In this document: in pieces, positions 4,768-22,858 of the stretch
How the letters are laid out: every line of letters starts with the position of its first letter
How positions within the stretch are numbered: position 1 is the stretch's first letter
Virus record (IMG/VR): IMGVR_UViG_3300022839_000099
Span: 1 to 23,023 of that record
Reading direction: 5' to 3' (one strand)
Source: a virus
DNA length: 23,023 nucleotides
Notes under the pieces: generated by a model
Database searches by the model: none
Told to the model about the DNA's origin: nothing
What the model saw: only the letters and a program-made list of their open reading frames with translations
Program-made: the position numbers and the translations under genes

Positions 4768-6237
4768 TTAGAGATTTTTACTTCTATTAATCCAGCTCTC
4801 TGTATTTTTATCAGTATTTGTTGCGGATGAGTTATTTTTGTCAAAAGGCAACCTCCACCCTGTTGTTTTGACTATTACATTTATCATTGTAACAACAAAA
4901 GTTGCAGTTGTCGCTTTTATACTTAGTGCCACACGAAACAAATTATCAATTCCTGTTAGTGTGAATGTTCCAACTGATGCAATGATCCCAAAACCTTTTA
5001 CCAAAATTGCATTAACACCAGTCAAAACAAATGTTGCCACCTCTGCGATCAGATTTTGACCTTTTGAAAACAAGACACTAATTCCTGTAAGGATGAAAGC
5101 ACCTGTATCTGCTATAAGTATTTTTCCTCTTAATAGGGTTACATCTATTCCAGTCAAAACAAATGTCCCAACTGAAGCGATCAGTAAACCACCGGACCGG
5201 AAGACAATCTCTACTCCTGTAAGTGTAAATGTTCCAAGTGATGCAAGTAATCCAAAACCATTTCTCAATGCAGAAGCAAATCCTGTCAAAACAAATGTTC
5301 CGGAGCTTGCGATTATTGTCAAAGCAATTCTGAAAATATTATCAACACCAGTCAAAACAAATGTCCCAACTGAAGCAATCATTCCCTTGCCTTGAATTAG
5401 GGTTGCATTTATTCCAGTCAAAACAAATGTCCCAACTGAAGCAATCATGTTTCTACCTATTTTTAAGAGATTTGCAACACCAGTCAAAACAAAGGTCCCA
5501 ATTGAAGCAATCATGTTTCTACCTATTTTTAAGAGATTTGCAACACCAGTCAAAACAAAGGTCCCAATTGAAGCGATCATTGGATAATTTACACTAAAAG
5601 GATGTGATAATCCTGCACCTCCGTTGTATAAAGTGGTAACTTCTGCTGATGTAAGTGCTTTGTTCCAGATACCTACTTCGTCTATTTGTCCGTCAAAGTA
5701 GGAAGCTGAAACCACACTTGAGCGACCTATTGAGACTAAGTGCGAAGATGTTTTCATCGTTCCAGTTTTTGCTACTGCAGTTGCATCACTTACACCATTT
5801 AAATACAGTTTTATATTAGTACCATCCCAAGTATATACAGCAAAATACCAAACACCTGTGGAAAGACTTGTTCCACCAGTTATGTACGCTTCAGTAGTAG
5901 TCGCCACCGTAGCCTGTAATTTATTGCCGTTAGTTACTCTAAATAATTGATTAAAAGTAGTGTTGTCTGTCTTACCTATCATGAATTGATATGCTCCGAG
6001 AACATCTAACTTTATCCAACAAGCTACTGAAACTGCTGTATATGCAGAAAGCAAAGATGTCCCTACAGTTTGACATTGATTAGAACCATTAAGTGTCAGA
6101 GCATTGTTTATTTTTCCTGCTGTAAAGGTTGCTGTTCCTACATTTGTACCATTATTAGAACCTGCACTATCAACAGCGTTTCCAGATGCCTCGTCTAGTT
6201 TCCAGTAAGATACTAAGTTTGTTAGTAATGATGACAT
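4768..6237 (-). CDS. LamG-like fibre or adhesin protein with eleven 22-residue repeats
   Basis: A 489-residue protein in three parts. Residues ~1-210 form a concanavalin/LamG-like jelly roll: LVSYWKLDEASGN at the start, AVSVACWIKLD in the middle, GVWYFAVYTWDGTNIKLYLNG, and the closing FDGQIDEVGIWNKALTSAEV, which is very typical of the family. Residues ~220-460 are eleven tandem copies of a 22-residue unit with core IASVGTFVLTG. The last ~30 residues are charged and carry WRLPFDKN. LamG domains on virions usually bind glycans, so a host-binding or decorative fibre role is likely, with the repeats as a stalk or spacer. Neighbours are a small structural protein and the 51-residue gene. Unequal recombination could easily change the copy number. 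Confidence 0.8.
   Translation of the reverse strand: MSSLLTNLVSYWKLDEASGNAVDSAGSNNGTNVGTATFTAGKINNALTLNGSNQCQTVGTSLLSAYTAVSVACWIKLDVLGAYQFMIGKTDNTTFNQLFRVTNGNKLQATVATTTEAYITGGTSLSTGVWYFAVYTWDGTNIKLYLNGVSDATAVAKTGTMKTSSHLVSIGRSSVVSASYFDGQIDEVGIWNKALTSAEVTTLYNGGAGLSHPFSVNYPMIASIGTFVLTGVANLLKIGRNMIASIGTFVLTGVANLLKIGRNMIASVGTFVLTGINATLIQGKGMIASVGTFVLTGVDNIFRIALTIIASSGTFVLTGFASALRNGFGLLASLGTFTLTGVEIVFRSGGLLIASVGTFVLTGIDVTLLRGKILIADTGAFILTGISVLFSKGQNLIAEVATFVLTGVNAILVKGFGIIASVGTFTLTGIDNLFRVALSIKATTATFVVTMINVIVKTTGWRLPFDKNNSSATNTDKNTESWINRSKNL
4858..5580 (-). repeat. Eleven tandem 66-bp coding repeats
   Basis: Eleven in-frame 66-bp units encode the 22-residue repeat. The two units nearest the LamG domain (about 5453-5584) are almost identical in DNA, while those further on have diverged at protein level, with conserved GTFVLTG cores. 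Recent duplication of the first unit is the simplest reading. Confidence 0.95.
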
Positions 6238-7741: not shown

Positions 7742-7818
7742 CTTGCTAGCGGTGTGTAAGTCATGTCGCAGAAATAGGTGAATAAAACTGTCAGCACAAC
7801 CTACACACCGCCAACAAG
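7742..7818 (-). other. Large stem-loop between the capsid and small repeat genes
   Basis: A perfect 10-bp stem (7749-7758 with 7802-7811) is extended by a further 4 bp (7742-7745 with 7815-7818) across a 3x3 internal loop, around a 43-base apical loop. It starts about 11 bases after the capsid stop and ends shortly before the next ATG. No U-tract follows it. It is probably an RNA structure in the late transcript; its function is unknown. Confidence 0.6.
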
Positions 7819-7829
7819 GCGATGAGTAA

Positions 7830-8687
7830 TTAAGCTCCTAGTGTAATATCAACAACAAGTGATAATTTTGGGGCCCATAATTTGAATCCGATGTAACCAT
7901 AAGTTACAACTTCTCTACCAGTTTTTCCTGATACTTCTTTTTCTTCAAATCTAACTCCTCGTGGTGAAGCGTAAGTAGCAACTCCTTTCACTCCGAACAC
8001 TCTGTGTCCAGCATTTGTGTAAGTAGTTGTTCCTAGTGTTTCATCTGCGAAAGTTCCAGATCTAACAACATAAATATCAACACCCATGTAAGAATCCATG
8101 AATCCGTTTTTAAGTGCTGAATCTGCGAAATTAAATCCGTTTGTAGCTTGTGCTTGTACGAAACCAACAACATCAGTGTTTTCAATTACAAGGAAAAGTC
8201 CTTTGTAAACATCAGCAAATCCGGCAACTTTTGAGATAAGGTTGGCCATGATTGGGTTAACATTTGCAACTGTTGTAAATCCGCCGGCAGGAGTTGTGTA
8301 AGCTCCTGTTGCATCTTCTGTAAGGTTGTTAAGAACAAATCTATCAATCTTAGTTGCAACTTGATAAATAGTTTCATCTACTCTAGATGCAAATATATCA
8401 AAGTTAGTAAGAATGTCTTCAAAATCAAAGATGTGTTCTGCAACAATAACTTCGTCAGTTACAGTCAAAGTGTCATCAGTTGTAGTGTAATCAGAGATTG
8501 AGTAAGTTCCAGTAATAGCTTGAACAGTTGCTACTGGTTGTGATCCGTATGGTGATTGAATTCGTTTGCTGTCTGTACGATCAACAGAACAAATTTTTTC
8601 TGAAACAAGTCGATTTCTCAAAGATTGTTCCAGTGTAGCTAGCTTGTATTTGTCACGGTATGTTCGTGAACTAATTGTATTGGCCAT
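7830..8687 (-). CDS. Major capsid protein (HK97-fold candidate)
   Basis: A 285-residue protein with no signal peptide. It carries long beta-rich stretches and a central helical spine-like part (FDFEDILTNFDIFASRVDETIYQVATKIDRFVL), then FADVYKGLFLVIENTDVVGFV and the C-terminal GREVVTYGYIGFKLWAPKLS. The last motif, a YGYxGFKxxxP strand near the end, is typical of HK97-fold major capsid proteins of small podoviruses. It follows an acidic scaffold-like gene and has well-separated flanks with a hairpin on each side, as expected of a highly expressed gene. The start is ATG 8687 (MANTISSRTYRDK). The N-terminus shows no obvious cleavable delta domain. Confidence 0.75.
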   Translation of the reverse strand: MANTISSRTYRDKYKLATLEQSLRNRLVSEKICSVDRTDSKRIQSPYGSQPVATVQAITGTYSISDYTTTDDTLTVTDEVIVAEHIFDFEDILTNFDIFASRVDETIYQVATKIDRFVLNNLTEDATGAYTTPAGGFTTVANVNPIMANLISKVAGFADVYKGLFLVIENTDVVGFVQAQATNGFNFADSALKNGFMDSYMGVDIYVVRSGTFADETLGTTTYTNAGHRVFGVKGVATYASPRGVRFEEKEVSGKTGREVVTYGYIGFKLWAPKLSLVVDITLGA

Positions 8688-10017: not shown

Positions 10018-11811
10018 CTACGCACTAACTTGAGGTTGTGTAACCTCTGGAGTTTGTGGAGGAGGTGTTTGTGTGCCAGTTAATTCTAAAGGCGACACTG
10101 CACCAGTCATTGTTAAGATTTTACTGAATATCATTTTAGCATTTGGATCAGATAATACTAGTGGATTTGTTGCAATAGTCTGAAGAACTGTTGTCAGAGT
10201 TGTCAAATATGTTCCTGTGTTTGTTTGCTCTCCTGTTACATCCACTTCAAGATCCCACTCCATATCCTCGAAATATTCTTTCCATTGTTTTTCAGTCACA
10301 TCTTCTGAAGGAATAAAAGAACGAGTGTTTCCCATTTTGCTTAATTCTTCTTGAATACTTTCTTGAGTTGACTGAACATCCATTGATACCGGCAACTCAC
10401 CTTTCACCAAAGAATCAATCACTTCTTTTTTAATTCTCTTTTCTGTTTCTGAATTTATGTAAGAAACATCAATTTGCTTAATTTGACTATCAGTCAAAAC
10501 TCCCATTATTTCTTTTCTGTTTGACAATTGTTTTCTTACGAATTTAAGAACATATTTTCTGAACATCTCTTCAATGCCTAGTCCTTTGTTTTCAGTCATA
10601 AGCTCAAACAAGTCATGTGACTCTGCGAGAACAGCTTCAGTTTGTCGCCACGCTGTTCCAGATTTTGGAGTTTGTCCTAACATCGCTTCAGATATACCAA
10701 CGATTTCATTTCCTAATTGTTTCCACGATGTACCAAAGTTTTGAAACTGTGTGATGTCGTGTGATCCATTATTGATTTGAGTAAGTGGCATATTTTCTCT
10801 GTGAACAAGAATGTCACCTTGCTCAATGGCCAGCAAAGCATTTTGTCCAACATAAGTGTCATCGGCTGTCTGGAATATAAGCTTGGAAGCAAGATCCAAC
10901 TGATCCTTAATAGCTTTCATTGAGTGGTTTTCCATCCATTGAGATTCAAACAAATATTCAATTGCTCCAATTCCTGTTGATCTGTTGTCTTCTTCAATTA
11001 ATGAGTGTAGTAAATAAGGGCTTTCTTCTTTACCTTTAACCAAAACAAAGTCATCAAAATCATTTTCTTTTTCACCCATTACAAAAGAAACCACTTGCAT
11101 TTGCTGAACATATATATCCTCATCAGCCTCTTTTTCTGTAAGCAAAGATTTAGACAATTCACCATGAATTTCATAAAGTCTGATATAGCCTGCACGATTA
11201 TCTTTATTTTGACCATCAGCAGTTTCTCTTGATTGAACAGCAGAGATTAAAGATGCCACCATCCCTTGATCGTATGATTTATTTTTTCTAAGTTGTGCCG
11301 GTGTGTATTCTAATATTTCAATAACCGGATTGCTGTAAAAATCAATTGGATCAATAATTACTTTGTGCCAATTAACCACAACAGCATGAAGCTCTCCATC
11401 CTTCTCAACAAATTTTGTTACTGCTGAACCATATTTTGCCAATGTTCTTCCCCACTTATTAAGAAAAGTTCCAAAGTAAGATTTTCTCATCCATTCTTGA
11501 ACCTTCATTGTTGCAATAAAAGCTCTTGTTGTGTCCTTTAGTTTTGTCGGTTTAATTAAAATATTTCTTCTATCAATATCTGTTGCACGATATACAACAT
11601 TTACTGCACTTGTTCCAATATTGAAAAAAGGTTTATCTCTTCCCATTGAGTCGACTGGTCCAGAAATGTGCTTTGAATTTGCGTAAGCATCAATCTTGTC
11701 TAAGTTTTCCCTTAAATCAAATTGAACATACTTCGACAAAGTTGTTTCCCCTGCATTTTGGTAATCATTTTCTAGCTGTCTAATCAATGAACCAATTTCT
11801 TTTGTTGCCAT
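10018..11811 (-). CDS. Portal protein
   Basis: A 597-residue protein of podovirus portal length. It shows the usual order: an N-terminal helical part, FGTFLNKWGRTLAKYGSAVT, then DPIDFYSNPVIEILEYTP in the wing region, the sequence GIGAIEYLFESQWMENHSMKA, and the stem/crown helices with LGQTPKSGTAWRQTEAVLAE and SHDLFELMTENKGLGIEEMF. The GTxWRxxExxLxExHxLFExMTxNKG pattern is characteristic of portals in environmental podoviruses. The C-terminus is a proline- and threonine-rich tail (TGTQTPPPQTPEVTQPQ). The portal forms the dodecameric ring through which TerL pumps DNA. It follows TerL in the operon; the gap is 22 bases and contains no Shine-Dalgarno sequence. Confidence 0.85.
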   Translation of the reverse strand: MATKEIGSLIRQLENDYQNAGETTLSKYVQFDLRENLDKIDAYANSKHISGPVDSMGRDKPFFNIGTSAVNVVYRATDIDRRNILIKPTKLKDTTRAFIATMKVQEWMRKSYFGTFLNKWGRTLAKYGSAVTKFVEKDGELHAVVVNWHKVIIDPIDFYSNPVIEILEYTPAQLRKNKSYDQGMVASLISAVQSRETADGQNKDNRAGYIRLYEIHGELSKSLLTEKEADEDIYVQQMQVVSFVMGEKENDFDDFVLVKGKEESPYLLHSLIEEDNRSTGIGAIEYLFESQWMENHSMKAIKDQLDLASKLIFQTADDTYVGQNALLAIEQGDILVHRENMPLTQINNGSHDITQFQNFGTSWKQLGNEIVGISEAMLGQTPKSGTAWRQTEAVLAESHDLFELMTENKGLGIEEMFRKYVLKFVRKQLSNRKEIMGVLTDSQIKQIDVSYINSETEKRIKKEVIDSLVKGELPVSMDVQSTQESIQEELSKMGNTRSFIPSEDVTEKQWKEYFEDMEWDLEVDVTGEQTNTGTYLTTLTTVLQTIATNPLVLSDPNAKMIFSKILTMTGAVSPLELTGTQTPPPQTPEVTQPQVSA

Positions 11812-17613: not shown

Positions 17614-17874
17614 ATGAAAAAAATTTGGAACGATAAAGAAGGAGTTGTTATGGACACATTTGAAGATGTTCAAAATATAGCTCTCTATCAACATGGTGGA
17701 GTTTATTTTGAGATCATAAAAGAAAATGAATCTGAAACATTATATGTTGGATGGGTTGATGAATATGGTTTTGATAAAGTTTTTGAAAAAAGAGCAAAAA
17801 GAGAAGACTTTATAAATATACCAATTGAAGAGATGGTGAAATTTATCACTTCATTTAAAGATGAAAAATATTAA
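17614..17874 (+). CDS. Unknown 86-residue acidic protein
   Basis: Not recognised. The body is a mix of strands and turns with aromatic residues (ALYQHGGVYFEIIKENESE, LYVGWVDEYGFDKVFEKRAK), and could be a small beta-rich fold; the C-terminus is helical (IPIEEMVKFITSFKDEKY). The start follows a stop as TAATATG. Its own stop shares its last base with the helicase ATG (TAATG), so the helicase depends on it for translation. A helicase partner or host-takeover protein is possible but unsupported. Confidence 0.7.
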   Translation: MKKIWNDKEGVVMDTFEDVQNIALYQHGGVYFEIIKENESETLYVGWVDEYGFDKVFEKRAKREDFINIPIEEMVKFITSFKDEKY

Positions 17875-19133
17875 TGTTATATAAGCATCAAAAAGAAATA
17901 GTTGATCAAGATGTAAAAAAAACTGGGTTGTGGCTCGGCACAGGATCTGGAAAAACAAGGACAGCTCTTGCAATGGCAAAAGGAAAGACACTTGTGATTT
18001 GTCCGAAGACTCAAAAAGAAGATCAGAACTGGGAGCGTGAAGCCAAAGAAATGGGAATTGAGATTGATCTAACAGTAATTGGAAAAGAAGCTTTCAGAAG
18101 AGATTATTTAACTCTTGGAAAATTTGACACAATTATAAACGATGAAGCTCACACATGCTTAGGAGTCACTCCATCAATTCACTACAAAAACAAAATGCCA
18201 CGACCAAAGGCGAGTCAGCTTTTTTATGCACTGAAAGAATATATAACAAAACATAATCCAGAAAGAATTTATTTAGTAACAGCGACCATTGTAAAAAGTC
18301 CGATGACTGTTTGGGGAGCAGGTGTGATTTTAGGACAGTGGTCTGCAAACATTGATAGCTTCTATAAATTCAGAAGTATTTTTTATGTGAAACTGCCAAT
18401 GATTGGAAGAGAAGTTTTTACAGCAAAATCAGATAAAGAAACAAAAGAACGGCTCGGCAAGCTTGTTAGAAAAATTGGATTTGTTGGAAGGCTCGAAGAT
18501 TATTTTGATGTTCCGGAGCAAACTTATAAAAATGTTTTCATTGATCTAACAAAGGAACAAGTCACAGCAATCAAAGATGTCAAAATAGAATATCCAGATC
18601 CGATTGTGGCCATTGGAAAAATCAATCAAGTGGAAAATGGAATTCTTGCTGGTGATGAATATAATAAAGAAAAAACATTTACAGAGAATAAGACTGAGAA
18701 GATTTTAGAATATGCAGAAGAGTTTCCAAAAATGATCGTGTTTGTAAAATACACACAGCAAATAAATAACCTTGAAAGAAATCTCTTAAAGGCAAAGAAA
18801 AAAGTTTACACCTTAACTGGAAAAACTAATCATCGTGGAGAATTGTTGGCCATGCTAAAAAAGTCAGACGAGTATGTTTTGATTGTGCAGGCTCAAATCT
18901 CGGCAGGTTGGGAGCTTCCAGATTGTCCGGTAATGATTTTTGCTTCGAGAACTTATTCATTCGTTGACTATGATCAAGCTATTGGAAGAATTTTGAGATC
19001 AAATAAATTGAAGAAGAATCTCTATATAACATTAATTGCAAAGAGTCAGATTGATCTTGCGATTGAGGATGCATTGGTAAATAAAAAGGATTTTAATGAA
19101 AAGATATATGTAGATAAAAATTTGCGTGCATAA
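17874..19133 (+). CDS. Superfamily 2 DNA helicase
   Basis: A 419-residue two-lobe helicase. Lobe 1 has an N-terminal YKHQKEIV that looks like the Q-type motif, Walker A GTGSGKT (22-28), the DEAH box in IINDEAH (90-93) and TAT (136-138). Lobe 2 has FPKMIVFVKYTQQINNLE, VLIVQAQISAGWELPDCP (motif V) and QAIGRILR (368-375, motif VI with both arginine-finger positions). All motifs for ATP hydrolysis are kept. The length and compact C-terminus match phage SNF2/DEAD-like helicases used in replication or recombination. It follows an unknown coupled gene and ends with a promoter for the next set overlapping its last codons (CGTGCATAA). Confidence 0.85.
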   Translation: MLYKHQKEIVDQDVKKTGLWLGTGSGKTRTALAMAKGKTLVICPKTQKEDQNWEREAKEMGIEIDLTVIGKEAFRRDYLTLGKFDTIINDEAHTCLGVTPSIHYKNKMPRPKASQLFYALKEYITKHNPERIYLVTATIVKSPMTVWGAGVILGQWSANIDSFYKFRSIFYVKLPMIGREVFTAKSDKETKERLGKLVRKIGFVGRLEDYFDVPEQTYKNVFIDLTKEQVTAIKDVKIEYPDPIVAIGKINQVENGILAGDEYNKEKTFTENKTEKILEYAEEFPKMIVFVKYTQQINNLERNLLKAKKKVYTLTGKTNHRGELLAMLKKSDEYVLIVQAQISAGWELPDCPVMIFASRTYSFVDYDQAIGRILRSNKLKKNLYITLIAKSQIDLAIEDALVNKKDFNEKIYVDKNLRA

Positions 19134-19290: not shown

Positions 19291-19467
19291 ATGCAAACAA
19301 AACAAGAAATAAAAGACGAATATAAGAAAATAGAAGCACCTGCTTGGGCTGAATACTGGAAAATCAAAGACTCTGCTATGGCTAAATACTTGAAAATCCA
19401 ACAAATTGCTTGGGCTGAAAAAAATAGAAAACTAAAGGAGTTAGACGAAAAAGTATCAACTAATTAA
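19291..19467 (+). CDS. 58-residue protein with AWAEYWKI-type repeats
   Basis: The centre consists of three imperfect eleven-residue units (IEAPAWAEYWK, IKDSAMAKYLK, IQQIAWAEKNRK), each with an Ala-x-Ala-x/Tyr core and a basic end, likely an amphipathic helix. From memory, similar APAWAEYxKI repeats occur in uncharacterised phage and eukaryotic proteins, without a known function. The frame starts AACATG seven bases after the preceding stop. The end is close to the next gene. The repetitive helix suggests a protein- or nucleic-acid-interaction rod. Confidence 0.6.
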   Translation: MQTKQEIKDEYKKIEAPAWAEYWKIKDSAMAKYLKIQQIAWAEKNRKLKELDEKVSTN

Positions 19468-19473
19468 ATAATT

Positions 19474-19620
19474 ATGAAAGACTTTAATAAAGAATCAGAA
19501 ATAAAACACATACTAAAACAAAGACGAAACGACAAAAGAGCAGTAGCACTTACATACATATTCTTAGGATTTGCTTTTGGGTACTTCCTAGCTCACTTTC
19601 TTGTTTACTTAATTAAATAG
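19474..19620 (+). CDS. 48-residue single-span membrane protein
   Basis: A very basic N-terminal part (KHILKQRRNDKRAV) precedes one hydrophobic helix (ALTYIFLGFAFGYFLAHFLV) and a short end (YLIK). The positive-inside rule places the N-terminus in the cytoplasm. No lipobox or cleavage site. Holin-like size but with only one span and no lysis neighbours, so a superinfection-exclusion or membrane-anchor role is equally open. The stop is TAG, and the next gene begins two bases later. Confidence 0.6.
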   Translation: MKDFNKESEIKHILKQRRNDKRAVALTYIFLGFAFGYFLAHFLVYLIK

Positions 19621-19622
19621 AT

Positions 19623-19952
19623 ATGAAAAACTACACAGAAAGACGATTGGAAGAGTTTGATGAGAAGTCAGTGACTTTATTTACACGAAATGGGTTGGCT
19701 GTTTTACTTGATTATCCCCCACACGATATGGTTTTAGATGAGGGTAAAGTAAGGGATTTCCTCTCCACCTCAATCGCACAAGCCGAGAAAGAGATGTACA
19801 TACAAGGTTTCAAAGATGGGTTTGAACACTCTACAGAAAGCTTTAATGGAGAATACACACACCCAGATGTACCCAAAGACTTTCTTGAAAAAGATGCTAA
19901 GGAAGCACTAGACCTCCTATTCTCCCTAAACAAAGAGATTAACAATAAATAA
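19623..19952 (+). CDS. Cassette protein 1 (TERRLEE / IAQAEKEM / LNKEINNK modules)
   Basis: 109 residues. It carries all three shared modules: N-terminal TERRLEEFDEK, STSIAQAEKEMYIQGFKDG at about residues 48-66, and the C-terminal SLNKEINNK. Between them are unrelated segments, including a His/Pro-rich stretch (GEYTHPDVPKDF). The modules recur in neighbouring genes at DNA level. Mostly helical and acidic; no enzymatic signature. Function unknown. The junction with the next gene is the repeated AAAGAGATTAAC...TAATATG element. This suggests an accessory array that varies by recombination at short shared blocks. Confidence 0.65.
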   Translation: MKNYTERRLEEFDEKSVTLFTRNGLAVLLDYPPHDMVLDEGKVRDFLSTSIAQAEKEMYIQGFKDGFEHSTESFNGEYTHPDVPKDFLEKDAKEALDLLFSLNKEINNK

Positions 19953-19957
19953 CTAAT

Positions 19958-20497
19958 ATGACAAACACAGAAAGACGATTAGAAGAGCAAATAGAAGAAT
20001 GGAAAAAAGAAATTGGAGAAATTCCTGAAAACACCTGTACAAGTATTGACGGTGTAATTAAAGATATAGAAAAATATGTTGATGAAGTTGAAAATCTACG
20101 AATAAATGCTTGGAAATACGAAAGTGCAGAGGAGTTAGGAAAAGACTTACCCGATATTGGTTGGTCTGGCTTAACATCAGATCTAGATGGAAAACTTCGT
20201 GAAGATAATGAGAGACTCCGAGAACTTGGAATATTTTGGTATGAAAAATGTAAGGAGCTATCTACATCAATCGCACAATCCGAGCAGGAGATTTTAAAAA
20301 AGCTAGGAGATAAATGGAGTTTAGCGAGATTTATGCACGAGAAGTATGAGCAGTATGCCTTTATTTTTGGATGGGACACTCAAGAGAAAACTAAGGTTGA
20401 GTTTGACAATTTGCCAGAAGAAAATAAGAAAACAATGTTAGGCGTAGCAAGTGAAATCCTCTTGCTTCTAGACAAAGAGATTAACAATAATAAATAA
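19958..20497 (+). CDS. Cassette protein 2 (TERRLEE / IAQSEQEI / LDKEINNNK modules)
   Basis: 179 residues, the longest of the family. TERRLEEQIEEWKKEIGEIP opens it, LSTSIAQSEQEILKKLGDKW stands near residues 103-122 and LLLLDKEINNNK closes it. The inserted middle is helical and charged (IEKYVDEVENLRINAWKYES). The terminal blocks match cassette 1 in DNA as well as protein, but the central ~70 residues are its own. Its start is ACTAATATG directly after the upstream stop. No function can be assigned; the design suggests a small protein-binding scaffold that has been diversified. Confidence 0.65.
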   Translation: MTNTERRLEEQIEEWKKEIGEIPENTCTSIDGVIKDIEKYVDEVENLRINAWKYESAEELGKDLPDIGWSGLTSDLDGKLREDNERLRELGIFWYEKCKELSTSIAQSEQEILKKLGDKWSLARFMHEKYEQYAFIFGWDTQEKTKVEFDNLPEENKKTMLGVASEILLLLDKEINNNK

Positions 20498-20502
20498 ATA
20501 AT

Positions 20503-20856
20503 ATGAAAACAACAACATTTGAAGAATACTTAGAGAAAATATGCTTTGAAGATAATCCAAGCGTACTAGATGATGATATGCCTGACTTCTTTAACTCTTG
20601 GTTAGCAAACCTTGATGGAGAAGAATACTTAAAATACGGCAACGACTTAATCGCACAAGCCGAGCAGGAGATGTTGAAGAAGATAAGAGAAAAGATTGAG
20701 AAAGTGAAAGTTATTACACCAACAGTTGAACTACCACCAAATAAATTATCACAAAATCAAATCTTCGCAGGTGGACAAGCAAATATGTTTTTACGAATTA
20801 CTGAAGCCCTCGCCTCCCTAAACAAAGAGATTAACAATAAAGAAAAAATAATATGA
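20503..20856 (+). CDS. Cassette protein 3 (IAQAEQEM / LNKEINNK modules)
   Basis: 117 residues. The N-terminus differs from cassettes 1 and 2 (MKTTTFEEYLEKICFEDNPS) and is acidic, but DLIAQAEQEMLKKIREKIEK (about 48-67) and ASLNKEINNKEKII are shared. The central and C-terminal blocks are close in DNA to cassette 2, so the N-terminal segment seems to have been replaced. The frame runs into the ATG of the next gene (TAATATG-type junction, four-base overlap). Unknown function. Confidence 0.65.
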   Translation: MKTTTFEEYLEKICFEDNPSVLDDDMPDFFNSWLANLDGEEYLKYGNDLIAQAEQEMLKKIREKIEKVKVITPTVELPPNKLSQNQIFAGGQANMFLRITEALASLNKEINNKEKII

Positions 20857-21233
20857 ACAAAATTATTAAAGAATATCTAAAATTTGAAAAGTCTATGTTA
20901 GACAGCCCAAAGACATTTTTTCCTATATTTGAAGCTGGTTCAGATGCTAGAAGTGCAATAATCTGGAAAGAATACTTAGATTGGCAACAAAAAGGTGGCA
21001 AAACTGAAGACATTGAATTTAGAGATATTAGAGAAAATACGATTATGTGGCAGATGGGAAACGAATACTTTGTCCAAGAAATTGATAAGTTTGCACCTTT
21101 TACCAAAGAAGAGTATCAAAAAGGAGTTTCATCAGTCTACTCATTTATGAACGATAGACCTCAGTATTTTAAGTTTAGAAAACTTGAAGGAATGTTTAAT
21201 CCACTACGCATTCTACTCTATGAGATGTTATGA
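20853..21233 (+). CDS. Cassette protein 4, shortened at the C-terminus
   Basis: 126 residues, MNKIIKEYLKFEKSMLDSPK at the start, then IWKEYLDWQQKGGK, an acidic middle and a C-terminus rich in aromatic residues (FNPLRILLYEML). It ends at TGA instead of running into the shared tail. The tail (LAYLNKKINIKEN) is present downstream but in another frame. The family module in the middle is not visible, so it may be a distant member that took only the tail. Unknown function. Confidence 0.6.
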   Translation: MNKIIKEYLKFEKSMLDSPKTFFPIFEAGSDARSAIIWKEYLDWQQKGGKTEDIEFRDIRENTIMWQMGNEYFVQEIDKFAPFTKEEYQKGVSSVYSFMNDRPQYFKFRKLEGMFNPLRILLYEML

Positions 21234-21277
21234 CCCTCGCTTACTTAAACAAAAAAATTAACATTAAAGAAAACTAA
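21230..21277 (+). pseudogene. Out-of-frame remnant of the shared cassette tail
   Basis: From the ATG that overlaps the TGA of cassette 4 (TTATGA) a 15-codon frame reads MTLAYLNKKINIKEN, clearly the family tail seen as ASLNKEINNK in the others. Relative to the upstream gene it is shifted by -1. It is either a frameshift scar or a mini-ORF translated by termination-reinitiation. Confidence 0.6.
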
Positions 21278-21279
21278 AT

Positions 21280-21636
21280 ATGAGCGACTTAGGCGAATAT
21301 TGGAGAGATGTAAAGGAACATTTTAGAGACAAAAATAACCACCCAGAAAAATATTTCTCAAAAAAAGAAATCGAAGATTATGAAGCTAGATGTAAAAAGC
21401 GAGAAGAAAAAAGCAAACAAAGAGAAGCTCTTTCACTTGCAAACATTAAAAAAATAGCAACAGAAGCAAATTTAGAATTAAAAATTTATGAATCAACAGG
21501 GCAGTATTCTTTCGGAAGCATACTGGATTGGTGGACAACGACAGGAACAGCGATTGCTAGAAAATCAAGAAACAGATATTTCATTGATTTGTCGGATACT
21601 TGTAAATTAAAGAGTGTTTTATTAGAAGAAAAATAA
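21280..21636 (+). CDS. Unknown 118-residue protein in the cassette run
   Basis: Lacks the shared modules. The first half is very charged and helical (KEIEDYEARCKKREEKSKQR), the second half has SILDWWTTTGTAIARKSRNR and a final DLSDTCKLKSVLLEEK. The WWTTTGTA segment followed by basic residues could be a compact nucleic-acid-binding fold, but no family is recognised. The start is ACTAAATATG, preceded by the out-of-frame tail element. It ends 12 bases before the next ATG. Confidence 0.65.
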   Translation: MSDLGEYWRDVKEHFRDKNNHPEKYFSKKEIEDYEARCKKREEKSKQREALSLANIKKIATEANLELKIYESTGQYSFGSILDWWTTTGTAIARKSRNRYFIDLSDTCKLKSVLLEEK

Positions 21637-21648
21637 TTAGATAAATAT

Positions 21649-22125
21649 ATGAATAATATGCCAGAAGAACTAATAAGCAACATATTACACGCAGGGTCAG
21701 AAGAAAATGCACGAAAGGCAATTGACATTTATACGGCACAGATAGAGGAAGCCGTGCTTGAAAAGATAAACAACACAGACTTCTTTCGGTGGAGCGAAAA
21801 AACGCGGGACTTGATTAAAAAAGAAATCTTTTCAACCTTTTTTATAGAACAGAAGATGAAAGAGTTTGATGATAAGTTTCGAGAATATATAAGTGCAGGT
21901 ATTACTTATGCAGAAATACAAGAAGCATACAAGCCACTTGATTTTGAGGATGAGGTGAAGTGGATTCAAAACTTCATAAAACAGGCACTTAAAGAACAAG
22001 CAGAACAGGCTTGTGATGAAATTCTCAAGAGAGCAGAAGATACAACGGACTATAAAGAGAAGTCAGGACTGCTATCTGCGTCTGACATTGTAAGTAAATA
22101 CAAAGAGATTAACCTTAAAAACTAA
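21649..22125 (+). CDS. Cassette-like protein 5 (TAQIEEAV / YKEINLKN)
   Basis: 158 residues, helical throughout. TAQIEEAVLEKI (about residues 29-40) is a diverged version of the IAQAEQEMLKKI module, and the end SKYKEINLKN matches the shared tail. Two in-frame starts exist: ATG 21649 and ATG 21658; the second has the junction context AATAATATG and gives MPEELISNILH, so it may be the true one. The alanine- and glutamate-rich middle (KQALKEQAEQACDEILKRAE) suggests coiled coil. Function unknown. The tail-to-next-start sequence is one of the conserved junctions. Confidence 0.65.
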   Translation: MNNMPEELISNILHAGSEENARKAIDIYTAQIEEAVLEKINNTDFFRWSEKTRDLIKKEIFSTFFIEQKMKEFDDKFREYISAGITYAEIQEAYKPLDFEDEVKWIQNFIKQALKEQAEQACDEILKRAEDTTDYKEKSGLLSASDIVSKYKEINLKN

Positions 22126-22126
22126 T

Positions 22127-22444
22127 ATGGAAGATTGGAAAATAAAAATTGTAGATGTTGGTTATAAATTAGAAAAAGATATTTACATCTTTACTAAAAG
22201 ATTTGATTCTAAACTAGAAATGTTGGGAGGTGAAATTATAGACAGTGGAGCTGTGCCACCTAAACCAACCATATCTTTAACAGACCAACAAATGATTGCT
22301 TTCGCAAATGCCCTAGCTAAGGAGGGGGTAAATCCACAAAAGGAATTTACAGTAGGAAAATTAGAAGCCACAGAAAAACATTTACAAGATATGCGTAAAT
22401 TAGTATTCAAACTATTACCAACCAACCCTAAAAAACTAATATGA
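22127..22444 (+). CDS. Unknown 105-residue protein in the cassette run
   Basis: MEDWKIKIVDVGYKLEKDIY at the start, then a Pro/Thr linker (PPKPTISLTDQQMIAF) and a helical C-terminal part (EATEKHLQDMRKLVFKLL). Shared modules are absent, but it begins at the conserved TAATATG junction and its end lies in another copy of that element. One extra A in the run near the end moves the frame past the TAA used by the neighbours, giving ...KKLI and TGA. Unknown role. Confidence 0.65.
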   Translation: MEDWKIKIVDVGYKLEKDIYIFTKRFDSKLEMLGGEIIDSGAVPPKPTISLTDQQMIAFANALAKEGVNPQKEFTVGKLEATEKHLQDMRKLVFKLLPTNPKKLI

Positions 22445-22474
22445 AAAAGAAATTAACCCTAAATAACACCTATG
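22441..22474 (+). other. Double junction without a gene between (emptied cassette)
   Basis: A start-type junction (ACTAATATG) is followed directly by a tail-type junction (AAAGAAATTAACCCTAAATAA and then the ATG of the nuclease). A 15-codon frame from 22441 reads MKKKLTLNNTYEKRS, not the family tail, so it is probably not a gene. The arrangement is what deletion of one cassette between repeated junctions would leave. Confidence 0.5.
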
Positions 22475-22858
22475 AGAAAAGAAGCTAACTTTGGAACTGA
22501 ATTTAGATCGTGGATCAAAGCCAACCCTATGCACTCCGGAGCTTTTGAGTTAAAGCAAACTACCACTCCCCTACCCTTCTCAGCGGTCAAAGAACACCAA
22601 AGAAACGCACTTTTGGCCTGCAAGAGTGGAGTAGGGAAGGGGATTTTACACAAATTGCCGGATGACTCTCGTGGAGTCAAGCCTTTTGATTATTTTTATT
22701 TGAATAAATCATTTGCGTGGGTTGTGATCAAGTATCAAAAGAAAGGATTTGCAGTTATTGATATTGAAACTTTTCTTCTGGAAGAGTCACATAGCAAAAG
22801 AAAATCGCTCACTTGGGAGCGAGCGAAATCTGTTGCAACAATAGAAGTTGAATACTAA
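22472..22858 (+). CDS. RecU-like PD-(D/E)XK nuclease / Holliday junction resolvase candidate
   Basis: 128 residues. FGTEFRSWIKANPM starts the fold; E26-x-K28 (AFELKQT) is the metal-binding ExK; PFSAVKEHQRNALL (35-48) matches the PFS-x-EHQ-x2-L signature of RecU-type resolvases; KPFDYFYL and AWVVIKY follow; a basic end (SHSKRKSLTWERAKS) closes it. The acidic residue usually found before ExK in the PD motif is not obvious, because the region between the first helix and ExK is very short. Similar short forms, as I recall, occur in environmental phages. It would resolve branched DNA during replication or before packaging. The start follows the conserved junction as ACCTATG. Confidence 0.75.
   Translation: MRKEANFGTEFRSWIKANPMHSGAFELKQTTTPLPFSAVKEHQRNALLACKSGVGKGILHKLPDDSRGVKPFDYFYLNKSFAWVVIKYQKKGFAVIDIETFLLEESHSKRKSLTWERAKSVATIEVEY

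Follow-up and report, generated by a model that had tools for sequence, protein, structure and literature searches.

A hypervariable locus of small phage genes that is probably shuffled by recombination at near-invariant words of coding DNA

In this work, we found a hypervariable phage locus of small early-region genes that are probably shuffled by homologous or annealing recombination at short words of coding DNA. The window, by which we mean the whole stretch of DNA analyzed, is a complete IMG/VR record of 23,023 bp from a tailed phage with a Terminase_3-type large terminase. The array occupies positions 19,600-22,470 and consists of small forward-strand genes (P1 to P7), with a helicase on the left and the conserved backbone gene P8 on the right (Table 1); the match of P8 to Holliday-junction resolvases is weak (phrog_843, E 0.026). 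Repeats of other kinds are also present in the window. A minus-strand gene (4768-6237) contains tandem repeats of the IASVGTFVLTG type, and the twin contig L004 aligns to it with an offset, such that the copy number of the repeat differs. A small gene at 19291-19467 has an internal repeat of 33 bp (family D5), and its product shares 40% amino acid identity with a repeat protein of L119, another word-bearing phage.

The first-pass annotation of this DNA described three repeated blocks in the array, at gene starts, centers, and tails, and these proved to be real and far above the chance expectation. The start word ACACAGAAAGACGATT occurs exactly at 19633 and 19965 (expected 0.03 at two or fewer mismatches). 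The central word TCGCACAAGCCGAGCAGGAG occurs at 19774 (two mismatches), 20271 (one), and 20651 (none) and was never recovered in 100 shuffles; the positions first given for it (19770, 20267, and 20647) precede the true starts by about 4 nt, and the first two copies are inexact. This word is indeed GC-richer than its surroundings (0.50, compared with 0.34-0.38 in the genes that carry it). The tail word AAAGAGATTAACAATAAA has six copies (19932, 20474, 20824, 21251, 22102, and 22446, with 0, 1, 0, 3, 2, and 3 mismatches, respectively; expected 0.24). All six were said to run into the next gene, which requires a correction for the copy at 21234-21268, since it lies past the stop codon of P4 and is decayed or frame-shifted. 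As proposed, the genes hold different combinations of blocks: P1 and P2 have start, central, and tail words, and P3 has the central and tail words.

Table 1. Genes and word copies of the array in the window and the two bordering genes.
Feature	Position	Strand	Evidence
Helicase, left border of the array	17874..19133	+	phrog_62, E 9e-46; 64-74% DNA identity to relatives L005 and L007
P1, 109 aa: start word, insert, central word, insert, tail word	19623..19952	+	ORF; word profiles find 3/3 blocks
P1 start word, encodes YTERRLEEFD	19633..19661	+	Exact repeat with 19965; 96.6% over 29 nt to L075
P1 central word, encodes DFLSTSIAQAEKEM	19758..19797	+	87-94% to L139, L075, L151, L167
P1 tail word, extends into P2 start region	19915..19955	+	Family D1; matches L137, L167, L088, L166
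P2, 179 aa: start, central, and tail words; inserts unrelated	19958..20497	+	ORF; word profiles
P2 start word, encodes NTERRLEE	19965..19987	+	Exact repeat with 19633
P2 central word	20264..20292	+	96.6% over 29 nt to L075
P2 tail word	20457..20497	+	Family D1
P3, 117 aa, chimera; pieces match three different sources	20503..20856	+	Word profiles; DNA matches
P3 N-half (LDDDMPDFF module), without start word	20511..20624	+	84-86% DNA identity to L135, L137, L110-L112
P3 central word	20643..20682	+	20649-20680, 32/32 to L088; 87.5% over 40 nt to L139
P3 C-half	20706..20826	+	80% DNA identity over 121 nt to L170:70-190
P3 tail word	20807..20847	+	Family D1
P4, 126 aa, without start or central word	20853..21233	+	ORF; word profiles did not recover P4
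Decayed tail word directly 3' of P4 stop, not in P4 frame	21234..21268	+	Family D1, 82%
P5, 118 aa, without recognized words	21280..21636	+	ORF; weak phrog_27571, E 4e-4
P6, 158 aa, partial tail only	21649..22125	+	ORF; tail-word match
P6 partial tail word	22100..22120	+	Family D2; 22100-22132, 91% to L075
P7, 105 aa, body as L135:10179-10472, other C-terminal tail	22127..22444	+	70% aa identity over 94 aa
Tail-word remnant directly 5' of P8	22446..22465	+	3 mismatches
P8, backbone gene, right border of the array	22472..22858	+	72% and 44% aa identity to relatives L132 and L134

To search for the words in other phages, we queried IMG/VR with protein, degenerate, and DNA-word queries and removed overlapping records. 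The same blocks, which the earlier annotation had suggested looking for, recur in about 25 other phage loci, and the central word is found in about 40 genes at about 25 loci. By their terminases (joined at 35% identity), the word-bearing contigs form at least five groups; all are metagenome contigs, many of them from few sample series. The common forms are ACAGAAAAAAGATTAGAGGAGTTTGA for the start word (encoding TEKRLEEF), TTCCTCGCCACCTCAATCnnnCAAGCCnTAGCAGAA for the central word (FLATSIxQAxAE), and CTCCTCTCCTCCCTAGACAAA for the tail word (LLSSLDK), which extends into the following start codon, and the window has its own dialect of each. Among the isolated phages searched, none carried the words, and a search of 395 Bacteroidota genomes with one form of the central word gave no match. 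The central word lies inside reading frames rather than between genes, and the tail and start words are likewise coding. Their frame is constant (39/39 for the central, 24/24 for the start, and 42/44 for the tail word; reversed controls, 0). The tail word occurs in in-frame fusions with unrelated methyltransferases as well: L162 has it on a C5 DNA methylase, L166 on a further C5-type protein, and L171 on an N6/N4 methylase.

Some further features of the word-bearing contigs were noted. The LDDDMPDFF module and a glycine-rich GGAGT repeat are fused in L110 (9980-10279) and L111 (9980-10255), and the length of this repeat differs between these near-identical contigs (99 and 91 aa). The array of L109 contains a 57-aa gene (MSIEYCHKCDSQ) twice (7742-7915 and 10479-10652), as protein-identical copies. 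In the 30-kb phage contig L118, positions 10276-11598 encode a GroEL-like protein, with a GroES-like gene downstream (identified by eye).

The DNA-level conservation of the words, which the first-pass annotation had claimed, is supported by both codon identity and pS in comparison with control genes. Codon identity at identical residues is 0.82 in the central word, compared with 0.42-0.48 in control genes of like amino acid identity, although the pairs are not independent and the control bins at 40-70% identity contain few pairs. These controls are homologs of similar amino acid identity between the same contigs, and the value of 0.82 was recomputed without the loci fetched by central-word DNA because such loci are biased by construction. 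The corresponding values are 0.83 for the start word and 0.77 for the tail word, the loci of the latter being partly fetched by tail DNA. The conserved isoleucine is encoded by ATC in 27/27 cases (ATC accounts for 23% of isoleucine codons), and at equal pN, the pS of the central word is 0.335, compared with 0.747 in controls. The inserts (pS 0.22, pN 0.09) resemble ordinary coding sequence and show purifying selection.

Frozen synonymous sites weigh against an ordinary paralogous family, in which a duplicated ancestral gene would have kept the words as conserved protein motifs. Such a family would account for words that encode helical motifs in one frame (in low-confidence models of P1, 3/3 words lie in helices), and the constant reading frame could reflect selection on the peptide. 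Given that the words also encode predicted helices, protein-level constraint contributes to their conservation. A family of this kind is nevertheless highly improbable, because in addition to the frozen sites, the halves are unrelated between genes and change partners, and the tail is also found on unrelated methyltransferases. The initial description of an array of paralogues holds in that the words are shared; the segments between them are mostly unrelated, and the tail extends to unrelated enzymes.

Constraint on DNA might also be expected if the words were maintained because they have a regulatory function at the DNA or mRNA level, such as translation start, promoter activity, or processing, with the shuffling as a by-product. 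The tail extends into the next start codon, and no Shine-Dalgarno-like sites were found in the window, such that the leader could carry the start signal. We consider this explanation unlikely, because the central word is located mid-gene, promoter-like and terminator-like sites are no commoner than in shuffles, and no RNA family in Rfam was matched. The array has 8 promoter-like sites (12.7 expected) and 1 terminator-like site (2.1 expected), as counted for the sigma-70 type only. RNA pairing between the central and tail words was also considered; genes that carry only one of the two argue against it.

The exchange of gene parts was examined by cutting the central-word genes at this word and comparing N-halves and C-halves separately. 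All 14 comparisons that share one half (seven with shared N, seven with shared C) differ in the other half, and both halves are shared only in pairs from near-identical contigs. In the eight pairs displayed at the nucleotide level, identity is high in one half and drops mostly to 15-35% in the opposite half. For example, L141 and L135 are 100% identical in the C-half past the word, with N-halves at 15-35%, and L153 and L162 are 100% identical in the N-half, with C-halves near random. The switch from high to random identity occurs at the central word in 13/14 comparisons. Relative to the central glutamine codon, shared-N identity stops at +28 to +43 nt in 5/7 comparisons (+4 and -50 in the others), and shared-C identity stops at -21 to +1 nt. 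When the N-half is shared, identity generally extends as far as the 3' end of the word, and when the C-half is shared, it extends back to the 5' end, which places the switch within the word.

The window provides its own hybrid in P3, of which the N-half resembles L135/L137 (84-86%), the central word L088 (32/32), and the C-half L170 (80%). The P3 N-half also has DNA identities of 71-73% to L114, L113/L147, and L116, and L170 carries its P3-like C-half behind a different allele of the central word. At the tail, the DNA match between P7 and L135 (22104-22407) begins within the upstream tail word and ends before the tail of P7 itself. In L145, an N-half joins the tail word directly; its near-twin in L151 joins the central word. 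Recombination at boundary sequences among mix-and-match genes, which the earlier annotation had suggested, is supported by these patterns, and it spans unrelated phages.

Hybrids could also be produced by assemblers that join different phages at shared words. The words are short repeats that could promote chimeras, the twin contig L103 is identical to the window up to 20421, where it ends within P2, and the array of contig G017 spans contig ends. However, another sample yielded a contig that contains the hybrid gene L171:11623-11922 at 100% identity, within 8.9 kb at 99.7%, and L154 and L156 have word genes in common across samples. Moreover, several shared halves have diverged by 10-20%, the inserts are under purifying selection, and misassembly cannot create the words themselves. 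An assembly artifact is therefore very unlikely.

The locus as a whole turns over rapidly relative to its flanks. G006 and G017 have identical terminases and are 94-99% identical in both array flanks, and their arrays are replaced save essentially two protein-identical cassettes, which lie in different surroundings. The first-pass annotation had regarded absence of the modules from relatives as evidence against it, and the nearest relatives of the window (G002 and G003; terminases 74% and 69% identical) in fact have no words and carry other genes at the locus. This absence counts for turnover, since unrelated phages do carry the words and the arrays of near-identical phages are not the same.

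Based on the sequences, we favor a recombination machinery that would act between co-infecting phages. A full gene would be assembled from parts in the order start word, N-half, central word, C-half, and tail word, with the words being coding DNA of about 21-45 nt that is near-invariant between unrelated phages, even at synonymous sites. During co-infection, the words may provide homology for homologous or single-strand-annealing recombination; a length of 21-45 nt fits annealing recombination. A crossover in the central word would yield an in-frame hybrid of two genes, and crossovers in the tail and start words would swap a whole cassette or provide an unrelated gene with a new 3' end. As such exchanges recur, the words would be homogenized and the inserts mixed, and the variety may be kept because the proteins act on host or defense targets. 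An annealing protein of the ERF family is present in 4/32 word-bearing or related records, near the array in G006, G013, and G017; it was not found in the window record, a fragment, or in most of the 32.

The alternative that the words are sites of an integron-like integrase, an invertase, or a diversity-generating retroelement is highly improbable. The array resembles cassette systems in that its variable inserts lie between short conserved sites, but here the sites lie within reading frames. Phage_integrase (PF00589), Resolvase, and RVT_1 (PF00078) were detected in 0/32 records, many of which are fragments, and were detected in controls; we found no integrase, serine recombinase, or reverse transcriptase in these records. 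The central words fold just slightly better than mononucleotide shuffles (mean z -0.9), and the tail word does not fold.

Under the favored reading of recombination at coding words, it is possible, at somewhat below an even chance, that unrelated phages share a community-wide assembly kit, in which coding words are selected as recombination joints, and continually build new in-frame hybrids out of a pool of N-halves, C-halves, and tails common to them all. Joints, parts, and hybrid products are directly legible in the sequences and countable in unrelated phages, which makes it possible to test how fast and by what rules genes are assembled. This bears on the long-standing question of how phages create genes and on the abundance and instability of short unknown genes.

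For protein function, no family in Pfam, NCBIfam, or PHROGs covers the word-bearing proteins. In a 10-member alignment, each match was confined to one member, with one member matching DnaJ-like and anti-TRAP-like motifs, and P1 and P3 had no significant family match. A 12-protein alignment was dropped as a search query because it was too diverse. AlphaFold2 models of P1 and P3 are all helical at low confidence (pLDDT 60-66). A role in host takeover or counter-defense, of the kind that the first-pass annotation had proposed, would suit the position, the turnover, and the methylases among the cassettes, but it is doubtful. If the proteins do act on host or defense targets, phages would have in this pool a combinatorial library of effectors of natural origin. 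The lack of a Shine-Dalgarno signal in the window, together with distant terminase relatives in Bacteroidota phages, tentatively suggests a Bacteroidota host. The LDDDMPDFF module also had a match in one Bacteroidetes MAG contig, which may be mis-binned. The share of genes with Shine-Dalgarno-like sites ranges from 0 (the window) to 0.58 (L168) among word-bearing contigs, so that the words may pass from one host to another even where start signals differ.

Several known systems resemble this locus in part. Like integron gene cassettes, the array has interchangeable cassettes and conserved joints; unlike them, its joints are coding DNA without a clear fold, and an integrase was not found. Titles cited in PMC4503421 present PeSLs as mobile regulatory cassettes of T4-type phages (Arbiol 2010; Comeau 2014). 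Going by these titles, the likeness lies in short conserved sequences repeated in a phage genome, through which small genes are shuffled as modules. PeSLs are reportedly promoter-terminator motifs between genes. The words, in contrast, are coding, one of them is mid-gene, and promoters and terminators are not enriched. In a single phage cluster, the Cluster K mycobacteriophages, conserved start-associated sequences recur at the starts of many small genes; they are 13 bp long, RBS-like, and typically placed 3-7 bp from the start (Pope 2011; PMC3203893). Our words are longer, coding, found at three positions, and linked to half-gene exchange, and the start word sits after the ATG, unlike an RBS-like repeat 5' of start codons. 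Unrelated phage proteins have been found to share fragments via ongoing shuffling, in a comparison of proteins with emphasis on receptor-binding proteins, endolysins, and polymerases (Smug et al., 2023; PMC10684548). The genes described here differ from that domain mosaicism in being short and of unknown kind, with joints that are near-invariant DNA words. In lambdoid phages, boundary or linker sequences are shared at module joints and serve homologous recombination between mosaic phages; they sit between genes, in phages that are related. In the present locus, the central joint is intragenic, and one set of words occurs in at least five terminase groups. The locus is a form of phage mosaicism whose joints are near-invariant coding sequence, one of them in the middle of a gene.
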